In this document: positions 30,306 through 40,388 of the stretch, piece after piece
How positions within the stretch are numbered: the first letter of the stretch is position 1
How the letters are laid out: each line of letters begins with the position of its first letter
DNA from: an uncultured Sphingomonadaceae bacterium
GTDB lineage: Bacteria; Pseudomonadota; Alphaproteobacteria; Sphingomonadales; Sphingomonadaceae
DNA length: 64,000 nt
Assembly: GCA_947499255.1 (NCBI GenBank)
Contig: CANMNF010000001.1
Location: 868,001-932,000, forward strand
Direction: 5' to 3'
The notes under the pieces: generated by a model
Databases searched by the model: none
What the model was told of the DNA's origin: nothing
What the model saw: the letters and a program-made list of their open reading frames with translations, nothing else
Translations under genes and position numbers: made by a program

Positions 30306-32208
<1,903 letters not shown>

Positions 32209-34047: not shown

Positions 34048-34100
34048 GGCGAGAATAGAAAGGACGAGAACCAAAGGCACAGTGTCCTTTGTTTCTCGCC
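34048..34100. terminator. Bidirectional terminator hairpin
   Basis: GGCGAGAA (34048-34055) pairs with TTCTCGCC (34093-34100), and AAAGGAC pairs with GTCCTTT inside it, separated by a small internal bulge. The structure lies between the convergent metallopeptidase and BlaR1-like genes and would serve both. Confidence 0.75.
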
Positions 34101-34130
34101 CTCCCTTGCAAGTGGCTGATTAACCGGGGA

Positions 34131-35915
34131 CTAAACCGTCAATCGAGCCGCTTGCTGTTTGGTCTTGTCATCATCGCACTCATCGGCATCACCCAAGGCG
34201 CTGGGCGTTTGCGCGCTGATCCCACGAACGCGGATGCCGGCGCTGATTTTCATTGCGCTGATGGATGCGCCATAGGCGGTGCGTTTTGCCTTGGCTGACC
34301 GTTCTGACTGGATGATAAAGCCGCGCGCAACATCGCGGCTTTCCTGCAACTCTTCGATCGCTTCAAGAATTTCCGCGATAGCTTCCTGGCGCGCTTCATG
34401 CGGAATATGCGCATTGTCGCGCAGCGCATTGACCACGTGGCGAAGGCCCATGATGGTTTGTTCATTGATCGCGTTCTGGCAGATGATCATCGCTTTGCGG
34501 CCATCGCCAAGCTCAGTTTCGGTGATCATTGCGCCGTCAGAGCAATCGACTTCAAACTCAATTTCAATTTCATCATGTACCGCCACAGATTGCTGGTGCG
34601 CCACTGACACCGCACGATCAACCCGCGCCATCGCCCGGTCAATGTCAGCGCTTGCAGCTGCTACTGCGACGCGCATGTCGGCTTTGATCTTGGCGCGAGT
34701 TTTGGGTGAAAGCGCACCATCATTGCTGCGGGTATCATACAGGGGGACACTGGGAATGCCAGCCGCGCCAGCATCTGTATGGCCGATCACCATATCCTCA
34801 TCCGGATCGACTGTTGTGATCGGTGCAATAGTTGGCGCCTGGGGTGTCTCAGGCGGCTGTATTCGCTCGGGCGCAAGTCGCGGCGCGGGAGCCAGGTCAT
34901 GGCTTGGCGCAATGGGTGCGAGAGGCGCTTGGGGCGCTTGGGCCGCTTCACCTTGCGCATATGTGATCGACGCAGTGGCAGGCATTGCCAAAGCGCTGGT
35001 GACCAAAATAGCTATACCCAAACGGCGACGAGGCGTGGGGACTTCGGTCATGGAAAGGCTGCGCAACCGGTGAATGATCGACTTCTCGCCCAACATCGGA
35101 CATGCCATCGGTGCCGCCAAAGATTGATCATCAAGCGAGTGATGATAGCCAGCGGCAAAACCGGCTATCACCTGCGCATAGGCGGCACGTTCGGATTTGC
35201 CACACCCGGCAATAACGCGCGCATCGCATGCGGCCTCCTGATCTTTTCGCATCGCTCGCCAGCCCCACCAGGCAAGAGGATTGAACCAATGCAGCGCCAA
35301 TACCGGCTGTGCCAAAACGTTGGCGAGAAGATCAAAACCGCGATGGTGCGCCAATTCGTGCGCAATCGCGAAATCGCGGGCATTACGATCATAAAGGGCC
35401 ATAAAACCCGGCGGCAGCGCGACCACTTTGTCACCAATACCAAAAGCGATAGGCGAAGTGACGGCGGGCGTTTCCACCAACCGCACTGTACCGCTTTCCC
35501 CCACAGGCCGCGCATCAGCAAGCAATTCGCGCCGCATCTGCACATAATCACGCGCACGCCAGATCAAAAAGCCCAGCGCTCCAATCAACCAAATCGGGAT
35601 CACCACATGAACAAGCGCGATCCCCGTTTCAGGTCCATTGGCAGCAGCAACAAGCGCGCTCGACGCAGCGGGTTGTGAAAGGATCACCATCAAAGGCTGC
35701 GCTGCAGCGGGTGCAGCTTCGGCCACCGGTGCCATGCTGGCAGGCAACACCAGCGGCGGCATGATAAAACGCAGCAATGGCAGCGCCCATAAAGCATAAG
35801 CGATCATCGGCCCAAAATGTCGCGCGACTGTACGGCGCAAAACAAGCACCAAACCGATCAGCAGGCCGGTATAGATGAACGTGTCGAACAGCCACTGGCT
35901 GGCAAGCGCGCTCAT
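34131..35915 (-). CDS. BlaR1/MecR1-type M56 membrane peptidase without a penicillin-binding sensor domain
   Basis: The 594-residue protein begins with membrane helices (FDTFIYTGLLIGLVLVLRR and a second near 50) and has the M56 site HELAHHRGFDLLANVL (about 200-215) with helper HWFNPLAWWGWRAM. EAACDARVIAG supplies the usual Glu. A further hydrophobic helix (about 300-320) follows. In true BlaR1 the C-terminus is a periplasmic PBP-like beta-lactam sensor; here it is a Pro/Ala linker (QAPQAPLAPIAP) and then a charged helical domain of about 200 residues (VVNALRDNAHIPHE). Its start overlaps the BlaI-like gene, which it probably cleaves. Confidence 0.9.
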   Translation of the reverse strand: MSALASQWLFDTFIYTGLLIGLVLVLRRTVARHFGPMIAYALWALPLLRFIMPPLVLPASMAPVAEAAPAAAQPLMVILSQPAASSALVAAANGPETGIALVHVVIPIWLIGALGFLIWRARDYVQMRRELLADARPVGESGTVRLVETPAVTSPIAFGIGDKVVALPPGFMALYDRNARDFAIAHELAHHRGFDLLANVLAQPVLALHWFNPLAWWGWRAMRKDQEAACDARVIAGCGKSERAAYAQVIAGFAAGYHHSLDDQSLAAPMACPMLGEKSIIHRLRSLSMTEVPTPRRRLGIAILVTSALAMPATASITYAQGEAAQAPQAPLAPIAPSHDLAPAPRLAPERIQPPETPQAPTIAPITTVDPDEDMVIGHTDAGAAGIPSVPLYDTRSNDGALSPKTRAKIKADMRVAVAAASADIDRAMARVDRAVSVAHQQSVAVHDEIEIEFEVDCSDGAMITETELGDGRKAMIICQNAINEQTIMGLRHVVNALRDNAHIPHEARQEAIAEILEAIEELQESRDVARGFIIQSERSAKAKRTAYGASISAMKISAGIRVRGISAQTPSALGDADECDDDKTKQQAARLTV

Positions 35916-36340
35916 TGCTTCAGCTCCTTCAAGAGCCGCTCAATTTCCGAGATATCTTCAGGCGTTAGCGCTTCGTTTTCGGCCAGATGCGCGAATAACG
36001 GTGCCGCGCGGCCACCAAACAAACGCTCGACCAACCGCTTGGATTCCCCGCCCACATAGGCAGATCGGGCAAGCGTTGGCGTATACAAAAAGCGCCGACC
36101 ATCAGGCTGCGTATCCAAAGCGCCTTTCGCCACGAGCCGCGACAACAGCGTTTTGACCGTGGGCATGGACCAGCCGCGCTCTGCACAAACAGTTTCGCAC
36201 ACTTGTGCAGCCGTTTGCGGAGAGCGCAGCCATAACGCTTCCATCACGGCGTATTCAGCATCGCTGATCCGTTCAGGCGGTGTATCACCGCCGTGCCTTT
36301 TATCCTGACCTTTATCGCTGATCCCAGTTTTGCTTCGCAC
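35912..36340 (-). CDS. BlaI/MecI/CopY-family repressor
   Basis: The 142-residue protein has the BlaI winged helix domain: ISDAEYAVMEALWLRSPQTA (about 24-43), then RGWSMPTVKTLLSRLVAKGAL, the recognition helix and wing. The C-terminal dimerisation part is GGESKRLVERLFGGRAAPLF. It is usually cut by its BlaR1 partner, whose gene overlaps the stop (ATGA). The GTG start has GGAGG 5 bases upstream. Inverted repeats at 36367-36393, 27-53 bases upstream, are likely operators for autorepression. The target genes outside this pair are not evident. Confidence 0.92.
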   Translation of the reverse strand: MRSKTGISDKGQDKRHGGDTPPERISDAEYAVMEALWLRSPQTAAQVCETVCAERGWSMPTVKTLLSRLVAKGALDTQPDGRRFLYTPTLARSAYVGGESKRLVERLFGGRAAPLFAHLAENEALTPEDISEIERLLKELKQ

Positions 36341-36366
36341 GCCAGCCTCCCACTTCGACTACGTCT

Positions 36367-36393
36367 GTAAACCTTACGATTACGCTTGTAATC
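36367..36393. promoter_or_regulatory. Adjacent inverted repeats, candidate BlaI-type operator
   Basis: GTAAACCTTAC (36367-36377) and GATTACGCTTGTAATC (36378-36393) are both perfect inverted repeats and abut one another. The second fits the general TTAC-N4-GTAA form of BlaI/CopY operators. They lie 27-53 bases before the BlaI-like GTG and 115-141 bases before the divergent sigma gene. Confidence 0.65.
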
Positions 36394-36507
36394 TGAACAC
36401 TGGATGAACTCACCAATGGCTGATCTACAAGCCGGATTGTTGGCGCGACGAACCGTAAATGAAATTTTTTGTTGCATGTGGTGTAACCCTCGCCACAAAC
36501 AGGGCGA

Positions 36508-37047
36508 ATGAATGTGAGCCAGGACAAAACCGGCAGTCTGCTTGACCATTTGATCGCCAAAGCGCGTGAGGGTGACAGACGGGCTTATCGCGAATTTCTC
36601 GCTGAGGCAGCGATTGTGGTGCGCAAACAACTTGCGCGCAAGATCGGTGGTGATGGCGAATTGGAGGATATCGTTCAGGACGTGTTGATCGCCTGCCATG
36701 AAAAACACCATACGCTCGATCCGGGTCGCCCGGTGGGGCCGTGGTTGCGCGCGATTGCCGGGTACAAGCTGATCGATCATTGGCGCAAACGTGGGCGTAG
36801 CCCGATTGTGCTTGACGATACTGCCGATTTGCCAGTGGCAGCTGATGATCTGGCCAGCGTGGATATTGCCGCGCTGCTTGGCGAATTGCCTGAGGCGCAA
36901 GCCGAAGCGATCCGCATGACGCACATCGAAGGATTGACCAGCCAGGAAGCGAGTGAACGCGTTGGCATTGGTCTTTCCGCAATGAAGCTAAGGGTTCACA
37001 GGGGAATGAACCGGCTCAAGGAAATTGTAGAAGAGTCAAAGACATGA
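36508..37047 (+). CDS. ECF-type RNA polymerase sigma factor
   Basis: This 179-residue sigma-70 family protein carries only regions 2 and 4. Region 2 has RAYREFLAEAAIVVRKQLAR and DIVQDVLIACHEKHHTLDP (the usual DxxQDxx core). Region 4 is LGELPEAQAEAIRMTHIEGL followed by the helix-turn-helix around SQEASERVGIGLSAMKLRVH. It would direct RNA polymerase to stress or envelope genes when freed from its partner. The stop overlaps the start of the next gene, a NrsF-like anti-sigma factor. AGGG lies just 4 bases before the ATG. The divergent neighbour is the BlaI-like repressor. Confidence 0.9.
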   Translation: MNVSQDKTGSLLDHLIAKAREGDRRAYREFLAEAAIVVRKQLARKIGGDGELEDIVQDVLIACHEKHHTLDPGRPVGPWLRAIAGYKLIDHWRKRGRSPIVLDDTADLPVAADDLASVDIAALLGELPEAQAEAIRMTHIEGLTSQEASERVGIGLSAMKLRVHRGMNRLKEIVEESKT

Positions 37048-37673
37048 ATAAGAACACCGATGATCTGATTGCCGCATTGGCAGATAATGGTGCGCAGGCC
37101 CAAGGGCGCGGCGTGGGCAAGTTTGTCCTGCCGTTGATCGGTGTTGCCGCGCTGTGTTCGATTGCTTTGGGCCTTGTGCTTGATGATGCTTTCTCACCCT
37201 ATGCAGAAACTGGACCTGCGCCTTTGTTGGTAAAATGGGGCTTTTCCGTCTCGCTTGCTGTGCTGGCGCCGCTAACGCTGTGGTTGCTGGGTCGGCCGGG
37301 GCGCGATTCAGGCTGGATGCTTATTGCGCTGGCCGTGCCTTTTGCCGCTGTTTCAGCGATGTTTGTCGTCGATCTGGCGATGTCGGAACAGGCGTTTCCC
37401 GGCAAAGCATGGCAGACCTGTTTGACCGCGATGACCGTTCTTAGCCCGCTGGCTTTTGCTGGAGCGGTGATAGCTGTGCGTCACCTTGCGCCTACCAATC
37501 TGCGCCGTGCTGGCCTTGTCGCGGGATTGTTCGGCGGCGGTGTCGCGATGACGGCGTACGCGCCATTTTGTCCGGGCAGCGGCATGGCTTACATGGTCGT
37601 TTTTTATTGCCTCCCGATCTTGAGCATGGCAGCGATCGGTTTCCTGACAGGACCGCGCCTGCTGCGTTGGTAA
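37044..37673 (+). CDS. NrsF-family anti-sigma factor (DUF1109)
   Basis: The 209-residue product starts with a short cytoplasmic segment (MNKNTDDLIAALADNGAQ), followed by six hydrophobic helices, the DUF1109/NrsF layout. The N-terminal segment is the expected sigma-binding part. Related proteins hold ECF sigma factors of the SigF type inactive until membrane or oxidative stress. Its start overlaps the sigma gene by 4 bp, so the stoichiometry is coupled. Cysteines occur in the second half (TAYAPFCPGSGMAYM and VVFYCLP) and might be redox sensors, as in known NrsF proteins. Confidence 0.88.
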   Translation: MNKNTDDLIAALADNGAQAQGRGVGKFVLPLIGVAALCSIALGLVLDDAFSPYAETGPAPLLVKWGFSVSLAVLAPLTLWLLGRPGRDSGWMLIALAVPFAAVSAMFVVDLAMSEQAFPGKAWQTCLTAMTVLSPLAFAGAVIAVRHLAPTNLRRAGLVAGLFGGGVAMTAYAPFCPGSGMAYMVVFYCLPILSMAAIGFLTGPRLLRW

Positions 37674-37706: not shown

Positions 37707-38882
37707 TTGCGCGATAAACTGAAGTACACCGTCCGTCAGCTTGAAGACTGCCACAATATCGAAGATTTTCGCCGGCTGGCAAAACGGCGGCTGCCCTTCC
37801 CCATGTATCATTACATCGATGGCGCTGCCGAGGACGAGCTTAGCAAAGCTCGCAATACTGCCGCTTTTGACGATGTCGATCTGGTGCCCGATGTGCTGGT
37901 CGATGCGACCAAAGTTGATCCATCGATAACGGTTCTGGGCCGCAAGACTGCGCTCCCGCTGATCCTCTCGCCCACTGCTTTACAACGCATGTTCCATTGG
38001 CAGGGTGAGCGCGCGGTTGCCGCTGCTGCTGAGAAGTTTGGCCTGTGGTTTGGCATTTCCACCGTCGCCAGCGTGAGCATTGCCGAAATCGGTGCGAACT
38101 ATTCCGGCCCCAAACTGCTGCAATATTATTACCACAAGGATCGCGGGCTGAACGCTGCGCTGCTTGATGAAGCGCGGGCTGCAAAATTCGATGCCGTCGC
38201 GCTCACCGTGGACACTATCGTTGCTGGCAAGCGTGAGAGGTGCAAGCGCACTGGCTTTACCAGTCCGCTGAAACTGACGCCTGCCTCCATCGCCTCATTC
38301 GCCACCCATCCGCGCTGGACCTTGAATTATCTCTTCCGCGAGAAATTCGATATTCCCAACATCTCGCCGCATATCGATGCCGGAACGAATGTTGAGACAA
38401 GTGTGCAGGATTATTTCGACAACATGCTCGATCCATCCATGAATTGGAGCAATGCCGAAAAGCTGCGCGATGATTGGGGCGGCACGTTCTGCCTCAAAGG
38501 GATCATGTCGGTTGGCGATGCGCGCCGCGCGGTGGCGATGGGAGCGGATGCAATTATGGTATCCAACCACGGCGGCAGACAATTGGACGGCGCGCGCGCT
38601 CCGTTTGATCAATTGGACGAGATTGTGCAGGCGGTTGGCGGCGACATCGAGATTATCTGCGATGGCGGCGTGCGGCGCGGCAGCCATGTTTTGAAATCAC
38701 TGGCCACAGGCGCAACCGCGGCGAGTGGTGGGAGGCTTTACCTGTATGCCCTCGCCGCCGCTGGCCAAGCCGGGGTTGAGCGTGCGCTGACCATTTTGCA
38801 GGATGAAATCACCCGCAGCATGAAGCTGATGGGGGTAAGCCGGGTAGACCAGCTCACCCCCGATCACTTGCGGCGACGTTAA
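37707..38882 (+). CDS. lldD: LldD-type L-lactate dehydrogenase / alpha-hydroxy-acid oxidase
   Basis: The 391-residue FMN enzyme oxidises L-lactate or a related alpha-hydroxy acid and feeds electrons to quinone. Markers are FPMYHYIDGAAEDE (N-terminal), LSPTALQRMFHWQGERAVA, FDAVALTVDTIVAGKRERCK, FCLKGIMSVGDARRA and the catalytic-His motif MVSNHGGRQLDGARAPFD. IICDGGVRRGSHVLKSLATG binds FMN phosphate. The start is TTG; the only nearby ATG, at 37696, is out of frame. It ends 4 bp into the convergent creD gene. The true substrate may be another hydroxy acid, since the family is hard to separate by sequence. Confidence 0.92.
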   Translation: MRDKLKYTVRQLEDCHNIEDFRRLAKRRLPFPMYHYIDGAAEDELSKARNTAAFDDVDLVPDVLVDATKVDPSITVLGRKTALPLILSPTALQRMFHWQGERAVAAAAEKFGLWFGISTVASVSIAEIGANYSGPKLLQYYYHKDRGLNAALLDEARAAKFDAVALTVDTIVAGKRERCKRTGFTSPLKLTPASIASFATHPRWTLNYLFREKFDIPNISPHIDAGTNVETSVQDYFDNMLDPSMNWSNAEKLRDDWGGTFCLKGIMSVGDARRAVAMGADAIMVSNHGGRQLDGARAPFDQLDEIVQAVGGDIEIICDGGVRRGSHVLKSLATGATAASGGRLYLYALAAAGQAGVERALTILQDEITRSMKLMGVSRVDQLTPDHLRRR

Positions 38883-40291
38883 GCCGCGCCGCTCGCCGGG
38901 TCGGGCGCGAACCCTTCATCTTCGGGCGTCAGCTTGGTTTTCGACCAATCCACTTGCCGCGTGCCATACATAATCGCCGCCAACGCCGCGAAGAGCAGCA
39001 TGGAGCCTGAGACCAGCGAATAGGTCTCTGCATTGAGCAAGATGTAAAGGACGCCGTAAAGCCCGGTCAGCATCGCGGCCATAAAGCCTGCTCGCTTCCA
39101 CGAGCCCAGCACTGCCGCGCTATAGGCTGTGAGCAGTCCGATAATCGCAGCTGCTGCGATAACATATGCCCAGCCAAACCCGAAAACCTCGGCAAAGGCG
39201 AGCAGCATCACGAAGAACTGCACCAGCCCCACGCCCGTCAGCAGATATTCCGCCATCGCGACTTTCGCTCCGCCGACGACATCGAACAGGAAATACACCG
39301 CGAAAGTGAAAGCGATGAACAAAAATCCATACTTCACCGCGCGATCAACCTGACTGTACAGATCCACCGGATCGACAAGGCCAACAACGGCAACCGGGCC
39401 AACGGTTTCGGGTGCGCTCGACATCGAAAAGCTATCCCTGTGCCGGACAGGCTGCTCGACATCATCCGAAAGCGCCATCAATCCCCGCCCCAGCGCCAGA
39501 TTGCTGATGCCGGCATAGGTTGCATCGAAGCCGTCCGCGCCAATCTCGCGCGTTGATGGCAGGAAGCTGCCGGTAAAGCTGGGATGCGGCCAGGCGCTGG
39601 TGATCGACCATTTCGTCTCTCCCCCGCGCGGCACCATCGCCAGCGACTGACTGCCGCGCAGACCAAACTGCCACGTCACATCAAGCGGCGCAGCATCGCT
39701 CCATTCCAGCGGCGTTGAATAGCCCTTGCCCCCTGTTGCATTGGGTCCGCTGCCCGGCAACAGCGTGAGCGTTTCGCCATTTGCGGTAACGCGCGTGCCT
39801 TCCAAAAGCCCGCGCGGATCGGTCACACCAAAGCGCAATTGCGCACGGTCAAGGATCAAAGCCTCACGCTCAATATCGAGCTGGTTGAACTCCTCGGTCA
39901 GCTGGAATTGCGCTGTCCCTTCAAATTGCGCTTCGTAAACAACGCTTTCGTAAATCGCATAGCCTTTGCGATCAGGCGTGATGTCGGTTTCAAGCGACTG
40001 GCGCACGGGCGAGATGAACAGCTGGCGTTCAACCTTTCTGGCAACGGTGCGCTGCGTGCCATCATCATCGGTTTCTGTCGTGGTGATCTCATCCATATAG
40101 GGCACGACCAGCAGCGGCCCTGTCACCACTTGCGCCCCGCCCCAACCTTGCGCGATCTGCGATTGGGCACGCGCGCTTTCATTCTCTCGGTCGTACACCA
40201 GCAGATAGACCATCATTAAGGGTACGATCAGCACCCCTGCGACAAGACCCACCAGGATCAGTTTAACACCAGGGCTGCGTTCTTGGTTCAC
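38879..40291 (-). CDS. creD: CreD-family inner membrane protein
   Basis: This 470-residue protein has one N-terminal helix (LILVGLVAGVLIVPLMMVYL), a long periplasmic domain (about 40-310) and five C-terminal helices. LVGLVDPVDLYSQVDRAVKYG and FDVVGGAKVAMAEYLLTGVG are strong CreD signatures. CreD protects against some colicins and is a marker of the CreBC envelope-stress regulon; the exact function is unknown. No creBC genes are visible, so regulation may be local. The GTG start has a near-perfect GGAGGTGA 3 bases upstream. It is divergent from the cyclophilin gene and convergent with lldD. Confidence 0.93.
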   Translation of the reverse strand: MNQERSPGVKLILVGLVAGVLIVPLMMVYLLVYDRENESARAQSQIAQGWGGAQVVTGPLLVVPYMDEITTTETDDDGTQRTVARKVERQLFISPVRQSLETDITPDRKGYAIYESVVYEAQFEGTAQFQLTEEFNQLDIEREALILDRAQLRFGVTDPRGLLEGTRVTANGETLTLLPGSGPNATGGKGYSTPLEWSDAAPLDVTWQFGLRGSQSLAMVPRGGETKWSITSAWPHPSFTGSFLPSTREIGADGFDATYAGISNLALGRGLMALSDDVEQPVRHRDSFSMSSAPETVGPVAVVGLVDPVDLYSQVDRAVKYGFLFIAFTFAVYFLFDVVGGAKVAMAEYLLTGVGLVQFFVMLLAFAEVFGFGWAYVIAAAAIIGLLTAYSAAVLGSWKRAGFMAAMLTGLYGVLYILLNAETYSLVSGSMLLFAALAAIMYGTRQVDWSKTKLTPEDEGFAPDPASGAA

Positions 40292-40388
40292 GGTTCACCT
40301 CCTCTTTCTATCTGCGATGAAACGTGCTTTGTGAGCGATGAACTGAATACCTTGTGAACTGTGCGCAGAGTGAGGCACAATCGCGATC

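Follow-up and report, generated by a model that had tools for sequence, protein, structure and literature searches.

BlaR1 is known as a beta-lactam sensor, yet its protease module is widespread in combination with other tails. Classical bla operators carry TACA/TGTA cores. For BlaR1 itself, four transmembrane helices and the key residues H201ExxH, E242xxxD, D210 and Y261 are described in an excerpt of PMC9834060, and part of PMC9045261 reports M56 proteins with class D sites in Oxalobacteraceae. Here, we analyzed a pair of genes related to this system within a stretch of 64,000 nucleotides from an uncultured bacterium of the family Sphingomonadaceae (hereafter the window). The pair, its control region and the protease half of the encoded membrane protein comprise the following features:

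36378–36393, minus strand: BlaI operator, distal copy GATTACAAGCGTAATC, 21 bp from the proximal copy (pattern and matrix)
36357–36372, minus strand: BlaI operator, proximal copy GTTTACAGACGTAGTC (pattern and matrix)
35912–36340, minus strand: BlaI/MecI-type repressor gene, 142 amino acids, GTG start (open reading frame, Pfam, match to MecI)
34131–35915, minus strand: BlaR1-like M56 membrane metalloprotease gene, 594 amino acids, ATG start (open reading frame, Pfam, NCBIfam)
35151–35888, minus strand: M56 domain, residues 10–255 (Pfam)
35346–35360, minus strand: HELAH zinc site, residues 186–190, with E227 and D231 downstream
34965–35021, minus strand: last of four hydrophobic stretches, residues 299–317, ahead of the tail (hydropathy)
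34057–34106, minus strand: terminator-like hairpin 3' of the M56 gene, 19 pairs (z -3.67)

The blaI–M56 gene pair and its operators

The repressor gene comes first on the minus strand and overlaps the M56 gene by 4 bp; the coordinates of both open reading frames agree with the initial annotation, which had named a BlaI repressor and an M56 protein. One M56 and one BlaI match were found in the whole genome (2.96 Mb, six contigs). Orthologues of the M56 protein occur in 34 of 36 other same-genus genomes (Aurantiacibacter, Erythrobacter, Alteraurantiacibacter and others), and since the remaining two, one of which is 69% complete, have no M56 match, the circuit seems dispensable. The M56 and BlaI genes are adjacent in 23/23 named genus loci and stand side by side in 20/20 loci taken from 19 further genera of the family, which were selected for carrying the C-terminal tail described below.

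The membrane protein is assigned to Peptidase_M56 (PF05569) with an E-value of 3.6e-40 (138.4 bits against a cut-off of 31), and BlaI to Penicillinase_R with an E-value of 7.2e-32 (110.6 bits against a cut-off of 22.6), as befits the normal repressor proposed earlier; all other Pfam matches of the two proteins stay under their cut-offs. The NCBIfam model blaR1_generic was not reached (85.8 bits against a cut-off of 400) and aligned with residues 13–291 only. The zinc motif, HExxH plus ExxxD, is present as HELAH followed by E227xxxD231, and the residues H186, E187, H190, D195, E227, D231 and Y246 are invariant in 24/24 aligned members, which bears out the earlier statement that the M56 HELAH site is kept. 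A profile of the members can be aligned weakly (E 0.69) to the catalytic stretch of S. aureus BlaR1 (8exp), and in this alignment the window residues fall onto the BlaR1 key residues given in the excerpt of PMC9834060. Structural comparison of the M56 region of the predicted model with BlaR1 (8exs) using VIA-align gave a Z of 7.0 over 125 residues with an rmsd of 5.4. Hydropathy indicates four hydrophobic membrane stretches in the M56 protein. Ahead of the last of these, a loop LAAPMACPMLGEKSIIHRLRSL containing Cys272 (residues 266–290, window 35046–35120, minus strand) is near-invariant across the genus and, by its position, could be the counterpart of the BlaR1 autocleavage loop.

BlaI aligns with MecI (1sd6) at an E-value of 1.6e-14. 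In this comparison, H118–L119 falls on the N–F of MecI, which we take to be the scissile bond, and L119 is kept in 79/80; by analogy, BlaI would be cut at H118–L119. Upstream of the gene, the operator at 36378–36393 had been placed exactly by the initial annotation, while the second copy at 36357–36372 had been missed. Dyads of the YTACANNYGTAR type lie upstream of blaI in 32/32 genus loci and in 20/20 loci of other genera. At least one operator precedes blaI in 52/52 loci and two do so in 31/52, with a spacing of 21 bp in 28 of these 31 pairs. This distance corresponds to about two helical turns and, judged from the sequence, would suit cooperative dimers. Both traits used here to recognize BlaI/MecI/CopY repressors, a Penicillinase_R domain and a dyad operator, are present. 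A search for a sigma-70-type promoter at blaI found none. At the other end of the pair, the hairpin 3' of the M56 gene is strong in the window, yet terminator-like hairpins follow M56 in 16/49 loci (window copy included; about 4% of shuffles; L053 was too short for the scan), and a terminator as a general trait of these loci was dropped.

The C-terminal tail and its distribution

Behind the last hydrophobic stretch, the protein continues with a linker and a C-terminal domain:

34788–34946, minus strand: Pro/Ala-rich linker, residues 324–376, differs between species (alignment, composition)
34281–34706, minus strand: family-specific C-terminal domain, residues 404–545 (alignment, predicted structure)
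34542–34544, minus strand: Cys458, invariant in 31/31 (alignment)
34479–34481, minus strand: Cys479, invariant in 31/31 (alignment)

The initial annotation had described the C-terminal third of the BlaR1-like protein as a Pro/Ala linker plus a helical domain without a penicillin-binding fold. The linker indeed contains 13 Pro and 11 Ala in 53 residues, the tail has no Pfam match above a cut-off, and the AlphaFold prediction agrees with the description: a helix (404–449) is followed by a hairpin (464–468/474–478) and two further helices (480–500 and 506–545). Residues 399–554 folded alone with 24 sequences reached a mean pLDDT of 85.9; after a long helix, both strands of the hairpin lie between the cysteines, and a helical hairpin follows. 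Although poor overall (mean pLDDT 62.5), the full-length model agrees with the tail-alone model in this part.

The possibility that the domain appears only by annotation error had been raised beforehand and is removed by the alignment, as 31/31 distinct genus proteins (window included) carry the tail. Among these, not only the two cysteines but also R509 is invariant, G472 and R473 are kept in 29/31, an additional third cysteine occurs near the tail end in 25/31, and the mean top-residue frequency over residues 401–540 is 0.45. Left out of this alignment were two copies of the window locus (L001, L002), 21 loci whose proteins duplicate retained ones, and L027, whose best match lies within the tail only. 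We conclude that the tail is a conserved domain in its own right and not an absence.

A hidden PBP fold was ruled out on the basis of the Pfam searches and the predicted tail of a hairpin plus helices. No transpeptidase/beta-lactamase Pfam family was found in the window protein at E<=1, none of 11 such families was found at E<=0.1 in the 24 aligned members (window included), and the structure prediction for the C-terminal part, which the initial annotation had suggested as a check, shows no PBP-like fold. As modelled, the tail is not a penicillin-binding fold. One SxxK motif (SAMK) was noticed by eye in the disordered, unconserved tail end and is not taken for a PBP site. Comparison of the tail with the PDB yielded no match at E<=0.001 using Foldseek (best 0.31) and none that was convincing by sequence search (best E 0.6). 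With VIA-align on the full-length model, middling helical matches were obtained for the tail (Z up to 7.5), which may reflect a common helical arrangement only. A ZraP-like (3lay, Z 5.9) or LTXXQ-like tail is not claimed: the LTXXQ family is absent among the matches listed, namely the best 25 of 97 weak Pfam families over 31 members, and no coherent Pfam family for the tail is found among these 25.

In the order, 211 of 396 sampled genomes have a match to the tail profile; 208 belong to the window's family, and three lie outside it with weak values (E 9e-5 to 9e-4). At the level of the class, 7/385 genomes match, five in the family and two weakly outside (E 1e-4 to 3e-4); the weak matches outside the family were treated as chance. 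Within the family, 71 of 79 proteins have a tail match at E<=1, and Cys occupies the two cysteine columns in 65 and 68 of these. Of 28 further M56 proteins picked by operator, 17 pass the tail profile at E<1e-3 and one other is cut short, which suggests drift or a different tail in more distant members.

Outside the family, 0/56 M56 loci match the tail profile (a few loci are cut short). All 47 of these 56 proteins that were scanned match M56, and their tails were assigned to carboxypeptidase-regulatory-like (7), TonB_C (3), WD40 (2) and HEAT (2) domains among the best 25 of 86 families. M56 proteins with a non-PBP tail are thus common and ordinary, so that a missing beta-lactam sensor is unsurprising in itself. 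This commonness limits the novelty of the locus, which lies in the particular tail domain and not in the absence of a PBP sensor. Literature searches limited to open-access papers, at the level of the titles and abstracts listed, yielded no description of the pair or of the tail.

Operator sites elsewhere and neighboring genes

The target genes had been called not obvious in the initial annotation, and the genome-wide operator search sharpens this view, as sites were found only before blaI. The pattern RNYTACANNYGTARNY has only two matches in the genome, both before blaI (reversed control, 7 matches); a second target is therefore not visible in this genome, which leaves the use of derepression unclear. 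Allowing one mismatch in a related pattern gave three non-self places, which were rejected as chance (two are intragenic, one lies about 46 bp before thyA, and the reversed control gave 17 matches). A site inside guaB (31187–31202) was likewise discarded, since it scores under every site used to build the matrix. Pattern searches of the genome found no operator before a beta-lactamase or PBP2a gene. Weaker operators could be missed by such searches; with sites at blaI alone, either weak operators went undetected or the output is the protease itself.

Among 40 congeners searched with RAYTACANNYGTARTY, the blaI site, told by its position beside M56, occurs alone in 27 and together with other places in 5, and 8 have no match. 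The extra genus sites (8 places with 13 strand matches against 10 strand matches in the reversed control, 40 genomes) are hardly above chance in number; only their position and recurrence speak for them. Two species have operators 14–16 bp ahead of a head-GIN (DUF2807) gene, and in one species each they precede an FmdA/AmdA-type gene and a TonB-receptor gene. The four species with operators before the genes named in this paragraph all carry the tail. As the window genome has no DUF2807 gene, DUF2807 was dropped as a general target. Operators also stand just before the gene of a PF00144 beta-lactamase-fold serine hydrolase in two same-genus species (L146, L150), which might echo the bla regulon of the classical systems.

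On the level of the family, the strict pattern GAYTACANNYGTARTC was found at 39 places in 35 of 119 genomes, with one match in the control. Of 34 fetched places, 28 are at blaI, and five unfetched ones adjoin known M56 genes by position. Of the six non-blaI places, one is a double site ahead of a DUF998 gene, one belongs to an FmdA/AmdA gene and one to a TonB-receptor gene; two lie at genes whose products have an N-terminus that looks signal-like by eye, and the last seems to be intragenic. Since they mostly occur in genomes whose M56 protein lacks a clear tail match or is cut off, they inform on the repressor family more than on the sensor, and may not bear on the tail sensor at all. In the relative with the DUF998 membrane protein gene, the double operator (L265:2501–2537) has the 21-bp spacing, and no blaI lies within the fetched 5 kb.

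Two neighbors of the pair were considered as further parts of the regulon. In Stenotrophomonas, the integrity of the envelope requires the inner-membrane protein CreD (PMC4689548), and CreBC answers the loss of PBP4 in Pseudomonas (PMC2654508). A blaI–M56–creD operon governing this envelope-integrity protein would fit the gene order in 30 of the 50 genomes listed with both genes, where creD follows M56 in the same orientation; in 12 others it is located upstream in that orientation, and in 8 it is unlinked (150 places listed among 211 tail genomes). In 29 of the 30, the CreD match starts 118–213 bp past the end of the tail match. However, no BlaI site was found in the gaps between the M56 stop and the nearest creD start (134–197 bp; 8 loci, 7 genomes), and the window creD is situated 2.5 kb from blaI–M56, behind ECF–NrsF and lldD. 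Moreover, a TTCAC-N6-TTCA-like element, which we take to resemble the E. coli CreB tag, stands just upstream of creD in 18/18 scorable genes including that of the window (shuffles 0.4%; 7 partial loci of the 25 with a creD match were left out). Given this conserved promoter element of its own and the gaps devoid of BlaI sites, the operon was rejected as extremely improbable, and creD seems, from the sequence, to be a neighbor with its own control. The second candidate, the ECF sigma gene, starts at 36508 (plus strand), divergent from blaI, and the operators fall within the 167-bp intergenic region shared by both genes. If they also governed the ECF sigma and NrsF anti-sigma genes, the circuit would feed into a sigma-F-type stress response, and the pair (36508–37673, plus strand) does adjoin blaI in 16/23 named genus loci. 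Yet operators are kept in the 7/23 loci without ECF–NrsF beside blaI, where the nearest of the searched genes is lldD (6) or creD (1), and in the window 114 bp separate them from the ECF start, where the ECF gene has its own promoter-like motif (by eye). Such control is consequently regarded as very unlikely.

The promoter-like motif GTAACC-N16-CGAAT (36483–36509, plus strand), which has the form of Caulobacter SigF promoters, overlaps the annotated ECF ATG at 36508, so the true ECF start may lie further in. The creD element of the window is located at 40314–40358 (minus strand), upstream of creD (38879–40291), and a repeated TTCRTCGC-like element follows it in 13/18 creD loci.

Proposed circuit and its relation to known systems

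As far as can be read from sequence, the locus has the gene pair, the catalytic residues, the operators and a conserved tail, and no detectable PBP domain. It is fairly probable that these parts form a signalling circuit of the BlaR1/BlaI type that controls itself and has a family-specific sensor. On the two operators 21 bp apart, BlaI dimers would repress their own blaI–M56 operon. The M56 protein would span the inner membrane, with the zinc site on the cytoplasmic and the tail on the putative periplasmic side. A change in the tail, predicted as a cysteine-bracketed beta-hairpin and a helical hairpin with a coiled-coil stalk, could activate the protease, which would then, following the example of BlaR1, cut BlaI in the dimerisation region and derepress the operon; in some relatives, derepression perhaps reaches a few envelope genes. 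The circuit is probably not for beta-lactams. In line with the envelope signal suggested in the initial annotation, we infer a non-beta-lactam signal from the envelope; two observations favor it, namely that the cysteine pair is predicted to face the periplasm and that operators precede envelope-type genes in a few relatives. Our guess is that the signal is a disulfide/redox state or envelope damage, and the cysteine-bracketed periplasmic hairpin would allow either a structural disulfide or a redox switch.

If the operon controls nothing but itself, the protease could also be the effector, with a signal raising both amount and activity of M56 and with membrane or cytoplasmic substrates other than BlaI. 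The two operator sites before blaI as the only ones in the genome, the strong hairpin 3' of M56 and the 40 congeners (27 with the blaI site alone, 5 also with others, 8 with no match at that strictness) speak for this explanation, which we nevertheless regard as unlikely in view of the plausible further target genes in some relatives and of weaker operators that could escape the pattern search. One might go further and propose that a periplasmic thiol/disulfide-type sensor replaced the penicillin sensor family-wide, and that the genus circuit is mostly without a transcriptional target but itself, so that the membrane protease is the output, with signal-dependent proteolysis rather than gene induction; this scenario is rather improbable. 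A similarly low probability is given to the idea that beta-lactam or cell-wall damage is still reported, via another partner or ligand instead of a PBP domain of its own. The operator before a PF00144 hydrolase in two congeners is in line with this idea, but PF00144 is a broad family whose members are mostly not true beta-lactamases. In an excerpt of PMC9834060, the sensor-less homologue of M. tuberculosis is discussed as a beta-lactam pathway, which would offer a precedent; on the other side, the searches of the window genome revealed operators before blaI only, and the tail, far from being a gap, forms a separate conserved domain.

The self-controlling circuit with a family-specific sensor is hence the reading with which we compare the described systems. 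With its conserved tail (two cysteines in 31/31), its spread within one family and its recognizable operator, the locus makes the question of what else BlaR1-like proteases sense a testable one. Among other M56 proteins, those with carboxypeptidase-regulatory-like, TonB_C, WD40 and HEAT tails in other phyla likewise have a non-PBP C-terminal part, but differ from the window protein in that its tail profile finds no match among the 56 outside loci, a few of which are truncated. The M. tuberculosis BlaR1 homologue, which is found together with BlaI, is likewise an M56 protein without a beta-lactam sensor, as described in an excerpt of PMC9834060; by that description it has no equivalent sensor, whereas the window protein has an alternative domain that is conserved. 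Closest are BlaR1/BlaI and MecR1/MecI of Staphylococcus and Bacillus, in which an M56 gluzincin membrane protease is likewise encoded beside a winged-helix repressor, with the same catalytic residues as in the window protein (by a weak alignment) and with dyad operators that have TACA/TGTA cores as in the window. Their targets are a beta-lactamase or PBP2a, and no such target of the operators was found in the window genome. Of the features by which a BlaR1 beta-lactam sensor is recognized, the adjacent BlaI/MecI repressor is present, whereas a C-terminal PBP/class D-like domain, a blaR1_generic score over the cut-off and, by pattern search, operators before a beta-lactamase or PBP2a gene were not found; where BlaR1 and MecR1 have their PBP/class D sensor, the window protein has a small cysteine-bracketed helical domain instead. 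It is the same machine as BlaR1/BlaI with a different sensor.
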